Shown piece after piece: positions 35,679-54,427 of a stretch of DNA of 64,000 nt. The notes beneath the pieces are model-generated. The model was not told the DNA's origin, ran no database searches, and saw only the letters and a program-made list of their open reading frames with translations. The position numbers and the translations under genes are program-made. The stretch covers positions 1 to 64,000 of the IMG/VR virus record IMGVR_UViG_3300032676_000934. One strand, written 5' to 3'. Position 1 is the stretch's first letter; every line of letters starts with the position of its first letter. The stretch comes from a virus.

Positions 35679-35854
35679 CAGCCGGCCATCCGAGCGAGCA
35701 GCAGGAACAGCAGGCCGATGCTGGCGAGGCTGAAGAGAACGTCAGCTCCGACGGACAAGGCAGCCACGTGGCCGCTCTTCACCACGAAGGCCGAGCCAAG
35801 CAAAGCTGATGCGAGGCACCAGCAGCCAATGAACGTGAGGACAAGCCAAGTCAC
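35678..35854 (-). CDS. 58-residue membrane protein
   Basis: GTG at 35854 overlaps the preceding stop (GTGA). Two hydrophobic segments: TWLVLTFIGCWCLASALLGS and VLFSLASIGLLFLLLARMAG. A longer frame to 36004 shadows the Cro-like gene. Located in the early leftward operon next to the immunity region, a site where exclusion proteins occur. Function unknown. Confidence 0.62.
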   Translation of the reverse strand: MTWLVLTFIGCWCLASALLGSAFVVKSGHVAALSVGADVLFSLASIGLLFLLLARMAG

Positions 35855-36105
35855 GCGGCAGCTCCCGAGCGAGAGGATGAAGCAGAGCCCCGAGATACGC
35901 CGGCCATGCGCCACAACTCGTCGGGGGCACGGAGCCCCTTCGACTTCAAAGCATCGCGTATCGCGACGTAGGTGTTGGCCGGAAGGCGGTCCGTAGCGGT
36001 CCAATTCCAGACCGCGTTCTCTGTCAGATCGAACATGGCAGACACCTTGCGGGCGCCGCCAAGGGCCTTCACGACAGCTCGAACATCAGGGAGTGCCTTG
36101 CTCAT
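35851..36105 (-). CDS. Cro-like repressor
   Basis: 84 residues from ATG at 36105: ALPDVRAVVKALGGARKVSAMFDLTENAVWNWTATDRLPANTYVAIRDALKSKGLRAPDELWRM. This is a Cro/YdaS-type helix-turn-helix (ARKVSAMFDLTENAVWNWTATDRLP). First gene of the leftward operon, divergent from the cI-like gene, with an operator in between. It would switch the phage to lytic growth. Confidence 0.82.
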   Translation of the reverse strand: MSKALPDVRAVVKALGGARKVSAMFDLTENAVWNWTATDRLPANTYVAIRDALKSKGLRAPDELWRMAGVSRGSASSSRSGAAA

Positions 36106-36193
36106 GCCAATGACGTTACCAAAGCAAATTGGGTACGGCAAGCCCGAAAAGGCCTTGGTAGAGCAAAATTCCTTGGGTGCGCATAATTCGCGC
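36106..36193. promoter_or_regulatory. immunity operator region between cro-like and cI-like genes
   Basis: Contains TACCAAAGCAAATTGGGTA (36117-36135), an imperfect 19-bp palindrome identical in plan to the site at 36888-36906. A weaker copy (CCCGAA...TTGGTA, 36142-36160) lies 25 bases on. Leftward and cI promoters must lie here, but no convincing hexamers are seen. The cI-like start is followed closely upstream by CATAAT. Confidence 0.7.
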
Positions 36194-36520
36194 ATGCCAA
36201 AAACGTCGAAGATCCGGGCTGAGGATGTGGCCGCCATCGCGGCGCGGCTTAAGGCTCTCCGTGCGGCGACGGGCTTAAGCCAGGAGGCCTTCGCCAAGCA
36301 GGTAGGGCTTGGCTACAAGCAGTGGGGCAACTTTGAGAGTGCGAGTGGCCGCATCGGATTGGATGCCGCACTCACCCTCACGCGCGAGCTGAAGGTGCCG
36401 CTGGACTGGATCTATCTCGGCGAGGAAGCCTGGCTCCCGGCCGGCTTGAGAGACAAGATCCGGCAGAAGATGGCCGCGCAGGAAAGCGACGAGCAGGACG
36501 ACAAGGCTACCCGCGCCTGA
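36194..36520 (+). CDS. cI-like repressor (XRE family)
   Basis: 108 residues from ATG at 36194: SKIRAEDVAAIAARLKALRAATGLSQEAFAKQVGLGYKQWGNFESASGRIGLDAALTLTRELKVPLDWIYLGEEAWLP. Classic lambda-repressor helix-turn-helix (LSQEAFAKQVGLGYKQWGNFE). There is no S24 peptidase domain, so induction would not be by RecA-driven self-cleavage; an antirepressor such as the one at 48047 could replace it. Confidence 0.85.
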   Translation: MPKTSKIRAEDVAAIAARLKALRAATGLSQEAFAKQVGLGYKQWGNFESASGRIGLDAALTLTRELKVPLDWIYLGEEAWLPAGLRDKIRQKMAAQESDEQDDKATRA

Positions 36521-36740: not shown

Positions 36741-36855
36741 CGCTCACCCTTCTGTTCCGCAAAAGTTCTAATTCAAAACGGCGGGAAGTCCATGCCTGTC
36801 ATGGCTGTCATCCAGGATCGATTGCCTACAGCTCGCGACCTGCCGAATATGTGCG

Positions 36856-42984: not shown

Positions 42985-43016
42985 CGGACCGAGCTTTCGT
43001 CCTTCGGAGAGTGACC

Positions 43017-43520
43017 ATGGATGAACAATGGCGTGAGATACCTGGCTATGAAGGTCTATACGAAGCCTCAGACGCCGGTCGTATCCGGAATAGCAAATCC
43101 GGTCTCATCCTGAAACCATACGCACGCGGCCTGTACCTTTGTGTGAGCTTGTTTGGCCCTTCAGGGCGGAAAACCCCTGAGGTCCACCCGATCATTCTGA
43201 AGACGTTCGTGGGGCCGAGACCTTCGGGATTGGTGGCGGCCCACCTCGATGGGAAAGGCACGAACAACTGCCTTTCGAATTTGGCTTGGGTCACTCCGGC
43301 AGAAAATGAAGCCCATAAGCTGATACATGGCACTCACAACAGAGGCAGGAGATCGCCTCACGCTAAGTTTACGGATGAACAGGTCGCAATAATCCGAGAG
43401 ATCTGTGCGCTTGGCGTTTCTGCCAACAAATTAAGCATTCTACTTGGCGTCTATGTATCTACAATAGCCGACATTGTCGGCGGCGAAACTTACCAGCCCG
43501 ATCAAGCCCTTCGGTCTTGA
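43017..43520 (+). CDS. NUMOD4-HNH homing endonuclease
   Basis: 167 residues from ATG at 43017. NUMOD4 start EQWREIPGYEGLYEASDAGRIRNSK, then HNH (HPIILKTFVGPRPSGLVAAHLDGKGTNNCLSNLAWVTPAENEAHKLIHGTH), and a C-terminal helix-turn-helix (KFTDEQVAIIREICALGVSANKLSILLGVYVSTIADIV). Free gaps on both sides fit an inserted homing gene. Its lower GC than the neighbours suggests recent transfer. Confidence 0.9.
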   Translation: MDEQWREIPGYEGLYEASDAGRIRNSKSGLILKPYARGLYLCVSLFGPSGRKTPEVHPIILKTFVGPRPSGLVAAHLDGKGTNNCLSNLAWVTPAENEAHKLIHGTHNRGRRSPHAKFTDEQVAIIREICALGVSANKLSILLGVYVSTIADIVGGETYQPDQALRS

Positions 43521-46479: not shown

Positions 46480-46964
46480 CCTCCTCCGCACCCCGCCGGA
46501 CCGCCGACAACGCCCGCTTCGGGGAAGAGGCCGAGGTCCCTGAGAACGAGACCGCGAAAAAGATCCGGCACGAGATCGCCGTCGCAGGCCTGTGCGGCTT
46601 CGACAGCCTGGATCAGATCCGCGGGCTGCTGAGCGATGCCGCCAACGAGGTCGAGAAGCTGGCCCAGGAAGCCGCCCAACTCCGCTCCCGTCTCCTTGAG
46701 GCTGAGAAGGGCGCCGAGGCGATGCGATGGCAGAGGACTGGCACGAGCACTCAGCCAATCGGGAACGGTCGCGGTGAGAACCAGTGGTTCCGTTCAGCGG
46801 ACGGCAGCATCCGCATGTTCCCGATGGGCTTCGATCCGAACTCGGGCACCTACGGCCGGGTCATCATGCACCGCGGGTTCACCGTCTACCTATGCCCAGG
46901 CGAGACGTTCATTCCGGCGCCTGATCCTCTTGCGCAGAGCCCCGAGGAGTCCGGCGATGCGTGA
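46476..46964 (+). CDS. unknown protein with coiled coil
   Basis: 162 residues. A coiled-coil stretch at about 60-85 (DAANEVEKLAQEAAQLRSRLLEAEKGAEAM), then a beta-rich end (NQWFRSADGSIRMFPMGFDPNSGTYGRVIMHRGFTVYLCPGE). Overlaps the truncated integrase by 8 bases. Function unknown. Confidence 0.6.
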   Translation: MTSSAPRRTADNARFGEEAEVPENETAKKIRHEIAVAGLCGFDSLDQIRGLLSDAANEVEKLAQEAAQLRSRLLEAEKGAEAMRWQRTGTSTQPIGNGRGENQWFRSADGSIRMFPMGFDPNSGTYGRVIMHRGFTVYLCPGETFIPAPDPLAQSPEESGDA

Positions 46965-47322
46965 ACAAGCTTGGCTCGGCTTGATGGTGCTGCTGGGGTG
47001 TGAACTGCCGCCGGAGGCCATGGCCATCGCTCTCGCCATGCCACGCGTCTCTGAGCGGATCTTCCCGTTCAATACGGACGCGGTGTCGGCCTCGTTCACC
47101 CGAGCGTGCGCATTCCTCGGCATTGAGGATCTCCACTTCCATGACCTCAGACATGGAGGGATCACACGCCTTTTCGAGATGGGGCGCACACTGCCTCTCG
47201 TCGCATCCGTCAGTGGCCACCGCTCCTGGCAAAGCCTCAAGCGCTACACCCACCTCAATCACAAGGGCGACCGGTTCGCCGGCTGGCCTTGGCTGAAGGT
47301 CGTTACCGAACCAGAGGCTTAA
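46957..47322 (+). CDS. C-terminal fragment of a tyrosine recombinase
   Basis: 121 residues. From residue 38: FPFNTDAVSASFTRACAFLGIEDLHFHDLRHGGITRLFEMGRTLPLVASVSGHRSWQSLKRYTHLNHKGDRFAGWPWLK. Second catalytic Arg (HDLRH), His/Arg (SGHRS) and nucleophile Tyr (RYTHL) are kept. The arm-binding domain, the core N-terminal part and the first catalytic Arg are absent. The frame opens with a plausible ATG, so it could be expressed as a small protein, but it cannot be a working integrase alone. Confidence 0.8.
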   Translation: MREQAWLGLMVLLGCELPPEAMAIALAMPRVSERIFPFNTDAVSASFTRACAFLGIEDLHFHDLRHGGITRLFEMGRTLPLVASVSGHRSWQSLKRYTHLNHKGDRFAGWPWLKVVTEPEA

Positions 47323-47697
47323 TCACTCCGGCTCCTCTCCGGGGTCGCTAGCGATGGCATCGTAAGCCTGCCCGCCGATCCGATCGGCAATGTCATCGTC
47401 GGCGATGCCTTCGACCTTCACCTCCAGCGTTATCCGGCCGCCTTCAGCGCGAGCCATCGTAAGGGCTTCGTAGAGCTTGTTGGCCGCGTCTCGCATGTCC
47501 TGAACGGCAGCAGGGTCGGCAGGCGTGTCTAGCCCAGGCGGCCGAAGGGTGCGTTCAAGGCGCGCCACGATTTCCGCGTTCATGCTGCGCTTGTTCGCCT
47601 TCGCCGCCTCGGCGAGCAAATCCCGCATGCCGTCAGGCAGCCGGACGAGGAACTTGTCGGCCTGTTCGCTTGGGTACTCGGATCGAGGTTTACGCAT
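47323..47697 (-). CDS. Mnt/Arc-like ribbon-helix-helix repressor
   Basis: 124 residues from ATG at 47697 (a frame to 47763 would run through the operators). [46 protein letters not shown] is an Arc-type ribbon-helix-helix; the rest ([30 protein letters not shown]) may be a Mnt-like oligomerisation tail. It is divergent from an Arc-like gene and antirepressor, as in P22 immI. Confidence 0.82.
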
Positions 47698-47706
47698 GAG
47701 GGCGCG

Positions 47707-47778
47707 CCATAGCACGTCGCTATGGAGCTTGACACGGCGGCGAGTCGATATGTAGAACTCCATAGCGGCTTGCTATGG
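47707..47778. promoter_or_regulatory. twin operators and promoter of the immI-like module
   Basis: Two palindromes: CCATAGC-N5-GCTATGG at 47707-47725 and again at 47760-47778, centres 53 bases apart (about five helical turns). Between them a rightward promoter: TTGACA (47729-47734), 18 bases, TAGAAC (47753-47758). The second operator covers its start site and abuts the ribosome site GGAG of the Arc-like gene. This arrangement would allow loop or cooperative repression of both divergent genes. Confidence 0.8.
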
Positions 47779-47785
47779 AGAGAAC

Positions 47786-48037
47786 ATGCCTCGCCCACGC
47801 TATCCCAGCGATGATGTCGACAAGCTGATGCTGCGGTTCCCGGCAGGGCTTCGCCCCCGGCTTGAACAGCGGGCGAAAGCAAACCTGCGATCGATGAATA
47901 GCGAGGTCGTCATGATCCTCGCGACGGCACTCGGAGCCGAAAGCAAGGAGACGACGACGGGGGTGCAGTTTGGCGACCCATCCCCCGCCGCCGCGCACGA
48001 AGCCGCCCGCAAGGGCGATCCCGTCACCCACGGCTAG
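47786..48037 (+). CDS. Arc-like ribbon-helix-helix repressor
   Basis: 83 residues: RPRYPSDDVDKLMLRFPAGLRPRLEQRAKANLRSMNSEVVMILATAL, an Arc fold with the basic strand LMLRFP and the RSMNSEVV helix. The C-terminal tail is disordered. Co-transcribed with the antirepressor 9 bases downstream. Expected role is autorepression and damping of the antirepressor, as P22 Arc does. Confidence 0.85.
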   Translation: MPRPRYPSDDVDKLMLRFPAGLRPRLEQRAKANLRSMNSEVVMILATALGAESKETTTGVQFGDPSPAAAHEAARKGDPVTHG

Positions 48038-48046
48038 GAGCCGCAG

Positions 48047-48796
48047 ATGAGCAACGATAGCACGAACGGCAGCCTGACGCCCTTCAATTTCGAGGGCGCG
48101 CCGGTTCGCGTCGTCCAGATTGACGGCGAACCTTACCTCGTCGGCAAGGATGTGGCCGAGCGCCTGGGTTACGCAGACGCAACGACAGCGATCCGGTCGC
48201 ACTGCCGTGGGGTGCAAAAGCTGCACCCCATCCCCGATAGCCTTGGCCGCGTTCAGGAAGTTCGCGTTCTCTCCGAACCTGATGTGCTTCGGCTGATCGT
48301 CAAGAGCAACCTGCCGGCCGCCGAGCGCTTTGAACGCTGGGTCTTTGAGGAGGTTCTGCCGACGATCCGGAAGACCGGACGGTATGGCGCGGCCGATCCG
48401 ATGGCCGCCTTGAATGACGCGGCATCGCTGCGCACCCTGCTTCTCGCCTCCGCGGAGCGCGAACTGACGCTTCAGGCAAAGATCGAGGCCGACAAGCCCA
48501 AGACCGGCTTCTTCGATCGCTTCATGAACGCGGACGGCCTTTTCGGCCTCCAGAATGCCGGCCGGATCTTGATTGAGCCGCCCAACAAGTTCGTCGGCTG
48601 GCTGAAGCAGCAGTTCCTCTTCTACCAAGGCGGGTCGCTCGTCCCCCGCGCGCAGTACCGCACAATGGGGATCTTTGAGGTCAAGGCGACGGTCGTAGAC
48701 GACAAGGCCCGCTATCAGACCTACGTCACGCCGAAGGGCCTTCAGTACCTCGCCAAGAAGCTCGGCAAGAGCATCCCCGGACTGGAGGAGGCATGA
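48047..48796 (+). CDS. antirepressor, Bro-N plus KilA-C type
   Basis: 249 residues. Bro-N domain at about 10-110 (FNFEGAPVRVVQIDGEPYLVGKDVAERLGYADATTAIRSHCRG, VRVLSEPDVLRLIVKSNLPAAERFERWVFEEVLPTIRKTGRYG). The C-terminal part 140-249 (GLFGLQNAGRILIEPPNKFVGWLKQQFLFYQGGSLVPRAQYRTMGIFEVKATVVDDKARYQTYVTPKGLQYLAKKLG) is the KilAC/ANT domain. Likely target is the cI-like repressor, which lacks a cleavage domain. Confidence 0.9.
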   Translation: MSNDSTNGSLTPFNFEGAPVRVVQIDGEPYLVGKDVAERLGYADATTAIRSHCRGVQKLHPIPDSLGRVQEVRVLSEPDVLRLIVKSNLPAAERFERWVFEEVLPTIRKTGRYGAADPMAALNDAASLRTLLLASAERELTLQAKIEADKPKTGFFDRFMNADGLFGLQNAGRILIEPPNKFVGWLKQQFLFYQGGSLVPRAQYRTMGIFEVKATVVDDKARYQTYVTPKGLQYLAKKLGKSIPGLEEA

Positions 48797-49038
48797 TGTC
48801 GGCGTTCATCGTGGACGTGAACGACCGCGGCGAGGATGCCGAGGGCAACGACTACAACTACCGCGTCCAGCCGCACGTGATCGCGGCCGGGCTGATGGTC
48901 GAGTTGCCGGTCCTGATCCGCTTCCCCGACGGCCGGCTTCAGGAGGCCATGCAGCCGCGGATCACACAGAAAGGGCTCGCGCACATGCGGGCCGAACTGG
49001 ACGCCGAGAAGGCCGGTCACAAGCCCGGTCGCGCCTAA
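48793..49038 (+). CDS. unknown small protein
   Basis: 81 residues: SAFIVDVNDRGEDAEGNDYNYRVQPHVIAAGLMVELPVLIRFPDGRLQEAMQPRITQKGLAHMRAEL. Ends in a winged-helix-like RITQKGLA pattern. Its ATG overlaps the antirepressor stop, so it belongs to the same operon. Confidence 0.6.
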   Translation: MMSAFIVDVNDRGEDAEGNDYNYRVQPHVIAAGLMVELPVLIRFPDGRLQEAMQPRITQKGLAHMRAELDAEKAGHKPGRA

Positions 49039-49068
49039 CCCCTCCCCACAGATAGGAGAGAAGCGATG
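49034..49068 (+). repeat. repeated gene-leader sequence, copy 1
   Basis: A stop-plus-leader cassette: CCTAACCCCTCCCC, then ACAGATAGGAGAGAAGCG and ATG. Near-identical copies precede the genes at 49770 and 49993. It holds the ribosome site AGGAGA. Confidence 0.8.
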
Positions 49069-49362
49069 CCGAAAGTCACCGACCCGCAGCAGTCCGCGCT
49101 AGTGAAGCTCAAGGCTCACGGCGGCGAAGGCGTCCTCGACAAGCACGGAAAGATCGTAGCCAGCGGCGTCCGGCTGCTCGGCTTCGATCCGGTAACGTGG
49201 CTGCGTCTGCTCACGACCGGCCACTTGGAGGTGCGCGGCGACCTTCGCGTCGGCCTCACAAAGAAAGGCGAGGCAGCTGCCATCGCCACGCCGCTCAAGG
49301 TCAACCCGCACGGCATCCATAGCCGACGCGAGCCGACCCCCGCTCACCCCGGAGCAGAGTGA
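49066..49362 (+). CDS. unknown protein with winged-helix-like end
   Basis: 98 residues: DPQQSALVKLKAHGGEGVLDKHGKIVASGVRLLGFDPVTWLRLLTTGHLEVRGDLRVGLTKKGEAAAI. The L...G......G.I.A.G....F...TWLRL...G.L......RV.LT..G pattern suggests a small winged helix. Preceded by leader copy 1. Function unknown. Confidence 0.6.
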   Translation: MPKVTDPQQSALVKLKAHGGEGVLDKHGKIVASGVRLLGFDPVTWLRLLTTGHLEVRGDLRVGLTKKGEAAAIATPLKVNPHGIHSRREPTPAHPGAE

Positions 49363-49613: not shown

Positions 49614-49741
49614 TGAGCGCTTTGCTCGCCATTCTTACCGCGGTCGGCATCCTCGCGAACGTCGTCGGCGCGCTGTGCATCATCGTGCCGTGCGTCGCGT
49701 GGCTCGGCTTCATGGCCTGGGCTTTGACTGACCCCGCCTAA
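49613..49741 (+). CDS. 42-residue membrane protein
   Basis: SALLAILTAVGILANVVGAL then CIIVPCVAWLGFMAWALT. Nearly all hydrophobic, two spans at most. Overlaps the previous stop by one base. Function unknown. Confidence 0.55.
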   Translation: MSALLAILTAVGILANVVGALCIIVPCVAWLGFMAWALTDPA

Positions 49742-49772
49742 CCCCTCCCCCACAGATAGGAGAGAAGCGATG
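49738..49772 (+). repeat. repeated gene-leader sequence, copy 2
   Basis: CCTAACCCCTCCCCC, ACAGATAGGAGAGAAGCG, ATG: identical to copy 1 except one extra C. Confidence 0.8.
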
Positions 49773-50929: not shown

Positions 50930-52400
50930 CGGTGCGGAATACGCAGATCGCTTGCTTTCGGCCTTGAGAACGCGATGTCGGCGGCGTTGCCCGAACCGCG
51001 CCCAGCCGCCTTCGGACCTAAAATGGGGCATTCCGCCTCGATTTTAGGTTCAGGTGAGACAGCGCAATGTACTATGTCGGCCTCGACCTCGGTCTCAAGA
51101 AGACCGCCGTGTGTATCGTTGACGAAGACGATAAAATTATTCGCAGGGGCGATATTGATAGTGAGCCAGAAGCCATCGCGCTCTGGCTGTACGAGCAGAA
51201 GCTGACCTACAAACGCGTCGGCCTGGAGTCGGGCATGATGCATGAGTATATTTATTTCGGCCTCGTGAAGGCCGGGTATCCGGCCATCGTCATCAACTCG
51301 GCCGACTCGCGGAACTTCCTCAAGAACAAGATCAACAAGACGGATAAGTCTGACGCGCATGGCATCGCCCGCATGATGCGGATGAAGCACTACCGCGAGG
51401 TCTACGTGAAGACGGAGGAGAGCAGGCGCCAGAGGGCGCTGCTCGCATCGCGCAAGTTGGCCATCGCCAAGATGCGGGACACTGAGACCCACATCCGCGG
51501 GATCATTCGTCACTTCGGGTTCAAGCTTGGCAAGGTCACGAGAAAGCAGTTCGAACCTCGCGTCCGTGAACTCATCGAGCATGATGCCATGCTAATGGCG
51601 ACCGTAGAGCCGATGCTGGCCTTGGCTCGGGCGGCGCGGGAACAGGCGAACACCCTGACCCGGCAGGTGTTGGCCATCGTCAGAGCCTGTCCCGTCTGTC
51701 AGATCCTGATCACGTGCCCTGGGGTCGGTCCCATTGTGGCGCTGATGTTCAAGACCACCATTGACCTGCCGACCCGGTTCCGGAACGCCAAGGCAGTCGG
51801 TGCGGCAGTGGGATTGACCCCGCGACGGTGGGAGTCAGGCGACACGAAGCGCATGGGCCGGATCTCCAAAATTGGAGACGAAGAGCTTCGCACCAGCCTA
51901 TTTGAAGGCGCCCAGGCGTTCCTGGCGATGAACAAGAGGCCGTGCTGGCTGCACACTTGGGCGCAGGAACTGAAGGAGAAGAAGGGGCACTACAAGGCGG
52001 TCATTGCGCTTGCCCGCAAGATCGCGATGGTCCTATACATTCTGTGGATCGAGATGCGGCCGTTCCGTTGGGACGATCAGCCCGTAGCTTGATCACGAGC
52101 TTCCGCCGTTGAGGCGGGAGGTGTCCGTCAAGGACCGAGGGGTTGGTTGGTTCCGGGTCTTACCTTGCAGGGGCATCCGCCTGCTGCGTCTAACAGATTG
52201 GAACACCAACTCGCGGATACCCATCTTGGAGCAGGTTCGCCCTGGCTCCGTAAGCAAGAGCGCAGTCCCTGACGTGATGACTACCTTCCTCAACTTCGAT
52301 CAGTTCGAAAGGCGGTAACGACGCAGATGCGTTGAACGAGATCCCCTCAAGGGGAGCACCTTCGGTGTGCCGTTAAATACGTTGGCCCGCGCGAGTGGGA
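50870..52400 (+). mobile_element. IS110-family insertion element (ends approximate)
   Basis: The transposase at 51067-52092 plus long non-coding flanks. IS110 elements have no clear terminal repeats, so the edges are guesses. The 5' flank (50930-51066, no gene) contains hairpin CGTG-TGCGAGC-CGCACG flanked by two GAATTTTC copies (50889-50920). The 3' flank (52093-52530, no gene) contains GCTTCCGCCGTTGAGGCGGG, AGATCCCCTCAAGGGGAGCA and CACCTTCGGTGTG hairpins. Either flank may encode the bridge RNA. Confidence 0.6.
51067..52092 (+). CDS. IS110-family DEDD transposase
   Basis: 341 residues. DEDD domain: YVGLDLGLKKT with Asp7, RVGLESG with Glu54, INKTDKSDAHGIARMM with Asp93 and Asp96. C-terminal Tnp_20 domain: ILITCPGVGPIVALMFKTTIDLPTRFRNAKAVGAAVGLTPRRWESGDTKRMGRISKIGDEELR, including the likely Ser nucleophile in GRISK. 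Full length, so the element may be active. The enzyme works with a bridge RNA. Confidence 0.92.
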   Translation: MYYVGLDLGLKKTAVCIVDEDDKIIRRGDIDSEPEAIALWLYEQKLTYKRVGLESGMMHEYIYFGLVKAGYPAIVINSADSRNFLKNKINKTDKSDAHGIARMMRMKHYREVYVKTEESRRQRALLASRKLAIAKMRDTETHIRGIIRHFGFKLGKVTRKQFEPRVRELIEHDAMLMATVEPMLALARAAREQANTLTRQVLAIVRACPVCQILITCPGVGPIVALMFKTTIDLPTRFRNAKAVGAAVGLTPRRWESGDTKRMGRISKIGDEELRTSLFEGAQAFLAMNKRPCWLHTWAQELKEKKGHYKAVIALARKIAMVLYILWIEMRPFRWDDQPVA

Positions 52401-53368: not shown

Positions 53369-53919
53369 CCCCTATCAAGCAAGAGGAGATCGCTGCGGCG
53401 ATTGAGGCGCTGGTCTTCTCGTCCTACTCGCACGGCCTCGGGGTCGGAGACGGCACGCTGAGCCAAATGGAGCCTCGCCGCTCCGCAGAGGCTCGTTTAG
53501 CCCTCACCGCCGCGATCCTATCCCGTCTCTCTGCCGCCGAGGCCGGGAGAGAGGCGCACCGAGAGCAGCTACAAGAAGCGCTGGACGAAATTGACCGGCT
53601 AAACGACCCGACGCTCAAGCACATGCGGCTGGAGAACGGCGAGATCAATATGGCCGTCGCCGGGCCGATGGTCGAGCGCTTGGCTCTGGCAATGACCGCC
53701 TGGTTCCGGGAGAGCGGCGCCGAGAACTACGTCGAGATGAACCTCAACGCGCGGGACAATTCGGACGACCGCTACTGCGTCACGGTGCAGAAGGTGTGGG
53801 CGAAGTCGCCTCACCAACTCCGTGCCGAAGCTGAAGCCGCCCGCGACTCCGCCCTTCGAGAACGAGACGAACTAGCTCACCGGCTGAAAGCGCTGGAGGC
53901 GAGTCATGAACGTAGCTGA
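53365..53919 (+). CDS. unknown helical protein
   Basis: 184 residues. A coiled coil at 55-90 (AAEAGREAHREQLQEALDEIDRLNDPTLKH), a globular middle (MVERLALAMTAWFRESGAENYVEMNLNARDNSDDRYCVTVQKVWAKSPHQL) and a C-terminal coiled coil. The overall plan is seen in phage early proteins of unknown role. Overlaps neighbours by 4 and 14 bases. Confidence 0.65.
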   Translation: MTPIKQEEIAAAIEALVFSSYSHGLGVGDGTLSQMEPRRSAEARLALTAAILSRLSAAEAGREAHREQLQEALDEIDRLNDPTLKHMRLENGEINMAVAGPMVERLALAMTAWFRESGAENYVEMNLNARDNSDDRYCVTVQKVWAKSPHQLRAEAEAARDSALRERDELAHRLKALEASHERS

Positions 53920-54427
53920 AAAGTTCTGGAGCAAGGTCAAGCGAAGTGATGACTGCTGGGAGTGGCAGGGAGGAAAGTCACCTCTCGGGTATGGAAGAGT
54001 ACGACATGAAGGTAAGGATTGGTTCGCGCATCGAGTGGCTTATTATTTGATTTATGGCGTCCATCCAGGGAACCTGAGCGTTTGCCACAAATGCGATAAC
54101 CCACCCTGCGTTCGCCCGGACCATTTGTTTCTAGGGACTCGTCACGACAACATGATGGACTCGGCAAGAAAGGGCCGTAACGCGATGCAGCGGTACCCAG
54201 AAAAGAACCCGCTCATCCTCAAGATAGCAAGCCAAACTCATTGCAAACGCGGGCATCCGCTGAGCGGCGACAACCTCTATCAAGGGAGGCGCACAAATCC
54301 TCGTCGCGAATGCTTAGCTTGCAAGCGAATGCGCGACCGCTCTGACAAATCGCAGGCGGCACATCGGGCGCGTAGAGCCGCCCGAAGGATCATAGCTTGT
54401 GTGGCCGTGGAGCATGCAAATGGCTGA
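53906..54427 (+). CDS. HNH homing endonuclease
   Basis: 173 residues: FWSKVKRSDDCWEWQGGKSPLGYGRVRHEGKDWFAHRVAYYLIYGVHPGNLSVCHKCDNPPCVRPDHLFLGTRHDNMMDSARKGRN, with HRVAY, the CHKCDNPPCVRPDHLFLGT core, and a C-terminal HCKRGHPLSGDNLY zinc segment. This is the HNH_3 family. Lower GC than neighbours suggests insertion. Confidence 0.9.
   Translation: MNVAEKFWSKVKRSDDCWEWQGGKSPLGYGRVRHEGKDWFAHRVAYYLIYGVHPGNLSVCHKCDNPPCVRPDHLFLGTRHDNMMDSARKGRNAMQRYPEKNPLILKIASQTHCKRGHPLSGDNLYQGRRTNPRRECLACKRMRDRSDKSQAAHRARRAARRIIACVAVEHANG

Follow-up and report, generated by a model that had tools for sequence, protein, structure and literature searches.

The Arc and Mnt repressors of phage P22 are model proteins, and the immI switch built from them is taught as a system of two repressors and two operators. 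Its elements follow each other in the order mnt (minus strand), TTGACA, Oarc within the promoter, TATATT, Omnt, arc, sar and ant. In phage lambda, two divergent repressors, cI and Cro, read one operator set. The antirepressor Ant is dispensable for growth and induction of P22 and acts on foreign repressors (PMC3121763), and ant modules have been called morons in P22-like phages (PMC2629481). Gifsy-type systems combine a short cI without a cleavage domain with LexA-controlled antirepressors encoded outside the immunity region (PMC3121763). For the ribbon-helix-helix (RHH) fold, AmrZ from Pseudomonas aeruginosa (3QOQ) reads GGC half-sites via Lys18, Val20 and Arg22; the AmrZ-DNA structure has a 5-bp linker, the authors mention that in Arc, too, five bases separate the half-sites, and a change of the linker in the AmrZ site lowered binding 7.5-fold (PMC3325190).

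We analyzed a window of 64,000 nucleotides (positions 1 to 64,000 of the viral record IMGVR_UViG_3300032676_000934), in which a sequence-only reading had recognized the mnt-arc-ant arrangement of P22. This comparison holds in part. As in P22 immI, two Arc-family genes diverge, the one in arc position precedes an antirepressor gene, and the cI locus is separate, so that gene order, the RHH identity of both proteins and the distinct cI/cro locus all agree. The operators, the N-terminal domain of Ant and the room for sar do not. P22 has distinct Oarc and Omnt sites, whereas the window carries identical 7-bp arms twice. In P22, Oarc lies between the -35 and -10 elements of Pant and Omnt at its start, while the sites in the window are found upstream of the -35 element and at the start; by position operator 2 corresponds to Omnt, operator 1 is without counterpart in P22 and Oarc without counterpart in the window. 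The N-terminal domain of Ant is P22_AR_N in P22, but Bro-N (with ANT) in the window, and the gap between arc and ant, occupied by the sar region in P22, is reduced to 9 bp with no room for sar, although an antisense start may be located inside the ant gene of the window. Finally, the β-strand code of the two RHH partners is nearly the same in the window and differs in P22.

Architecture of the RHH module and its operators

The gene in mnt position, arc1 (47323..47697, minus strand), encodes 124 aa with the β strand K-F-L-V-R, and its divergent partner arc2 (47786..48037, plus strand) encodes 83 aa with the strand K-L-M-L-R. Both match the Pfam Arc family (PF03869), with E-values of 1.4e-15 and 9e-11 and scores of 57.3 and 41.9 bits against a curated cut-off of 20.4, both strands end in the conserved arginine, and nothing else in the record matches this family, so that the assignment of two flanking Arc/Mnt-like genes is sound. 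Arc1 is homologous to AmrZ (3QOQ, E 7.5e-13), and Arc2 matches Mnt (1mnt) and AmrZ. The residues in base-contacting positions are K-L-R in Arc1 and K-M-R in Arc2, similar but for the difference of leucine and methionine. Note that the PHROGs name 'Partition protein ATPase' for Arc-like proteins was set aside as an annotation carry-over, as the proteins consist of RHH only. With AmrZ the module has in common the homologous RHH domain, the Lys-x-hydrophobic-x-Arg strand and, as proposed here for the window, autorepression; AmrZ is, however, a single host regulator with a GGC rather than an AGC half-site, and it has neither a divergent partner nor an antirepressor (PMC3325190). Many of the nearest relatives of Arc1 are found in Alphaproteobacteria.

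The 88-bp intergenic region holds two exact copies of CCATAGC-N5-GCTATGG, spaced 53 bp start to start, in full agreement with the initial description of twin 19-bp palindromes between the divergent genes. Putative operator 1, CCATAGCACGTCGCTATGG, is located at 47707-47725 with the spacer ACGTC, and putative operator 2, CCATAGCGGCTTGCTATGG, at 47760-47778 with the spacer GGCTT; the palindrome of the latter extends to 23 bp, CTCCATAGC-N5-GCTATGGAG. In a scan of the 67,387-base record these were the only exact matches. Single perfect palindromes with 7-bp arms and N5 are commonplace, with 11 occurrences in 64 kb, and what is unusual is the presence of two with the same arms inside one 88-bp intergenic region, whose twin score exceeded those of 60 out of 60 dinucleotide shuffles. 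Read from left to right, the start codon of arc1 is followed by 9 bp, operator 1, 3 bp, TTGACA (47729-47734), 12 bp, GATATGTAG (47747-47755), 4 bp, operator 2, 7 bp and the start codon of arc2. These two elements form a putative plus-strand promoter for arc2-ant (47729..47755), which is kept in the three relatives L003, L004 and L005. A promoter between the sites had been postulated earlier, and the conserved elements support it, with the likely start adjoining operator 2, but a strict sigma-70 consensus scan of the region returned none.

Directly downstream of arc2 and co-directional with it, ant (48047..48796, plus strand) encodes an antirepressor-type protein of 249 aa in which Bro-N (1.2e-19) and ANT/KilAC (1.1e-19) both exceed the Pfam cut-offs, as had been anticipated; it also matches phrog_130 (5.9e-69). 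A comparison of the Ant sequence with the PDB gave nothing useful, and the genes neighboring the module had no match in PADLOC. The following gene (48793..49038, plus strand, 81 aa) shares its first 4 bases with the end of ant, shows a weak, sub-threshold KilAC-like match and is 98% identical in a sister phage.

The main cI/cro immunity locus is found 11 kb away (35851-36520). It consists of a cI-like repressor of 108 aa (36194..36520, plus strand; HTH_31/HTH_3), the inferred target of Ant, and a cro-like partner of 84 aa (35851..36105, minus strand) with weak matches to YdaS and P22_Cro. The cI-like protein contains an HTH domain only and no Peptidase_S24 was detected in the record, which confirms that the main repressor is without a self-cleavage domain. 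The assignment to a myovirus likewise stands, on a tail sheath (E 2e-112) and baseplate genes identified with PHROGs; a doubt that had arisen from an empty Pfam search for the sheath was dropped once PHROGs detected it. The short cI without cleavage domain and the antirepressor outside the immunity region resemble the Gifsy-type systems, but control would be exerted by the RHH pair rather than by LexA, and the module has no LexA box in its vicinity (PMC3121763). As an induction input, the LexA box GTTC-N7-GTTC was rejected, with none near the module and counts at chance level. One such motif, the alphaproteobacterial form of the box, is present at 36754-36768, just past the cI-like gene, at a count that corresponds to chance.

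Twin operators and a possible specificity code in divergent Arc pairs

In two relatives, L003 and L005, orthologs of arc1 and arc2 diverge as they do here, the ATG start of arc1 is retained, and TTGACA...GATATGTAG is kept between twin palindromes. Their sites have changed to the type CCATATC-N5-GATATGG, in all four half-sites for L003, where the sites are 54 bp apart, and in three of four for L005, where one has drifted and the distance is 52 bp. The gene after arc2 in L003 carries a P22_AR_N domain in place of the Bro-N domain found here, which indicates that one RHH/operator cassette has been joined to different antirepressors. The Arc2 search of viral contigs yielded a single relative, a strict operator-plus-promoter pattern retrieved only L003 and L005 from these contigs, and in 397 genomes of one order it gave one match with one mismatch that we judged to be due to chance. 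With so few matches, the exact CCATAGC operator type is rare.

Starting from relatives of Arc1 in viral and genome contigs, loci from the Ant search, P22, Pyei1 and SPN3UB, we collected 107 divergent Arc/Arc pairs, all of them distinct. In 72 of 106, the intergenic region contained the same palindrome twice (p<=0.05), and P22 was not among these. Clustering at 60% identity left 77 non-redundant pairs, 50 of which had one operator in twin copies, compared to 1 of 154 control windows, which were matched in length and taken from the same contigs. Odd spacers of 1, 3 or 5 were enriched (48-61 of 106 pairs) with respect to even spacers (4-11, with 5 expected), and the enrichment was limited to symmetric sites centered on a base pair, as would be expected if the linker measures 5 bp, as it does in Arc and in the complex of AmrZ with DNA (PMC3325190). 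These data suggest that two identical, shared sites are the usual arrangement and that P22 is the exception. In a search that covered mainly freely available papers, we found no account of divergent Arc pairs sharing twin operators, which does not amount to a proof of novelty.

Among 86 genes on the arc2 side, the domains Bro-N (15), P22_AR_N (12), Rha (9), ORF6N (6), KilA-N (5) and AntA (4) were identified, where one gene can count under more than one domain, while an antirepressor-type domain was found on the arc1 side in only 2 of 71 cases. In the same position on the arc2 side, 8 of the 86 pairs had an integrase and 2 a resolvase; given the integrases, divergent RHH genes are not associated exclusively with antirepressors.

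The collection also allowed us to relate protein and operator sequences. Lys18, Val20 and Arg22 of AmrZ correspond in the alignment to model positions 5, 7 and 9, and the base-contacting residues equivalent to Arc Gln9/Asn11 and AmrZ Lys18/Val20 showed the best match from partner to partner. This agreement exceeded chance at position 7 (z 11.3) and position 5 (z 7.5), and both positions were identical in 27 of 77 pairs versus 3.9 expected, with a maximum of 13 in 5,000 permutations. Position 9 is an arginine in nearly all proteins, and the inner half-site base -3, which this arginine would read, is a cytosine in 65 of 69 cases. Operator bases -4 to -7 vary with residues 5 and 7: Q-K occurs with GGACCA or GGATCA, Q-N with AAAGCA, H-R with GACGCA, K-I with ATGGCC and K-L with ATATCG. 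For arc2, no positions covaried with the operator better than 5 and 7; for arc1, covariation was strong at position 7, but also at some helix positions, which we ascribe to relatedness. Kinship inflates some of these correlations, with a background z of up to 4.4, and clustering and the use of other positions as a reference correct for it only in part. A considerable fraction of pairs combine strongly differing partners with twin sites, so one protein may own both sites in those cases.

Exchange of the module in a sister phage

A sister phage with the same backbone (G001, IMGVR_UViG_2902405164_000001) differs from the window in defined segments. The C-terminal tail of arc2, the ribosome-binding site and the first codons of ant are 97% identical in DNA sequence (115 bp), and the KilAC domain together with the next gene is 92% identical in DNA, with 96% identity for the KilAC domain of the protein. 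In between, a Rha-type domain takes the place of Bro-N; upstream of these segments, both RHH domains (QKR/QKR) and the operators (now of the ACCAC-x-GTGGT type) have been replaced. The cI and cro genes were replaced as well, with 34-35% amino acid identity, and the DNA on either side of them is 81% and 92% identical. As a single case, the parallel exchange of cI/cro and the N-terminal domain of Ant would fit an action of Ant on the cI-like repressor; alternatively, both places may be hot spots of exchange. Further scans revealed no other sister phages for testing this co-exchange. Close to cI, the sister phage also encodes another Bro-N protein (L107:2752-3744), with Bro-N DNA 74% identical to that for the N-terminal domain of Ant in the window. 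No Bro-N gene was seen at the corresponding place of the window, and Bro-N seems to move between loci.

A proposed shared-operator switch and its alternatives

We propose, with moderate confidence and on the basis of sequence comparisons, that Arc1 and Arc2 share both operators in a cI/Cro-like logic and gate arc2-ant, whose product would disable the cI-like repressor. With nearly the same DNA specificity, each protein would bind the twin AGC-N5-GCT operators as a dimer of dimers, and the covariation across the collected pairs favors such sharing. In the prophage, Arc1 would hold both sites and shut the arc2-ant promoter between them; once this is active, Arc2 would feed back on the same sites, limit ant and compete with or repress arc1. 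The differing 5-bp linkers could confer different affinities on operators 1 and 2, as suggested by the effect of the linker change in AmrZ. Ant would then disable the cI-like protein at a distance of 11 kb, which is short and not cleavable, in the way that antirepressors inactivate other short repressors (PMC3121763). The genes, the operators, the conserved architecture, the covariation of base-contact residues in the two proteins with one another and with the operator, and the exchange of the module are observed; that each protein binds at each site, the order of occupancy, the target of Ant and any role in induction are what we infer here. The proposed arrangement resembles lambda in that divergent repressors act on the same operators, but it uses RHH instead of HTH proteins and two sites instead of three, and its output is an antirepressor. 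The L versus M difference between the strands, a promoter that is weak by consensus and the single sister-phage pair linking Ant to cI count against it, as does the truncation of the only integrase domain, given that the explanation supposes a temperate-type myovirus.

A faithful copy of P22 immI, in which the Mnt-like Arc1 binds one operator and the Arc-like Arc2 the other with distinct specificities, would account for the gene order and for the placement of operator 2 at the promoter start, like Omnt. We consider it very unlikely, as the arms of the sites are identical and the base-contact residues almost the same in both proteins, where P22 differs on both counts, and as operator 1 does not lie between -35 and -10. 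It is also improbable, if less so, that Arc1 alone owns both operators and Arc2 is an accessory protein or poor binder acting in another way, for example by heterodimerizing with Arc1. Several pairs with differing partner strands (PQ/KI, PP/KM) nevertheless have twin sites, and the covariation with operator bases is weaker on the arc2 side (z up to 6.8 versus 13); yet residues 5 and 7 still covary best on that side, and the strands in the window are K-L-R and K-M-R.

A further alternative concerns the target of Ant and is compatible with shared operators: the module may be of the 'moron' type, with Ant hitting mainly other prophages or late transcription rather than the repressor of its own phage. 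Both the behavior of P22 Ant (PMC3121763) and the designation of ant modules as morons (PMC2629481) are in favor of it, as is the location of the Pyei1 module among tail genes. The absence of a cleavage domain from the repressor and the exchange of both cI/cro and the Ant N-terminal domain in the sister phage speak against it, and we regard it as rather unlikely. The antirepressor may be the induction route, as had been suggested at the outset, but this role must not be transferred from P22, whose Ant is not needed for induction. If it applies, it would offer phages with a non-cleavable repressor a possible route that can be tested.

More tentatively, and with slightly less than an even chance in our estimation, P22 immI would be an outlier of a widespread class in which divergent RHH pairs with matched code share twin operators and control antirepressors that can be exchanged for one another (Bro-N, P22_AR_N, Rha, KilA-N, AntA). 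P22 would then be derived, by splitting of the twin-operator specificity, the pairs would embody a natural, readable RHH-DNA code, and heteroimmune phages would swap the RHH/operator/Ant-N cassette along with cI/cro. If one operator present twice and read by both proteins is the common form, the logic of the switch is nearer to that of cI and Cro than to the textbook case. With more than 100 pairs tying two residues to four operator bases, RHH specificity would become predictable and testable.

The surroundings of the module contain several further elements. A truncated C-terminal domain of a tyrosine integrase (46960-47322), the only integrase domain of the record, is convergent with arc1 and ends at its stop codon; similar pieces are found in the Burkholderia phages BcepIL02 and DC1. 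An IS110-family transposase (51067-52092) is inserted in the region of small phage genes, and two genes for HNH endonucleases (43011-43520 and 53906-54427) are found some way off on either side of the module region. Near-identical junctions of stop codon, ribosome-binding site and start codon (CCCTCCCCCACAGATAGGAGAGAAGCGATG or one base off) occur at two gene boundaries, 49033-49069 and 49736-49772. The junction sequence is common to the sister phage, and the repeat may represent a site of gene shuffling.
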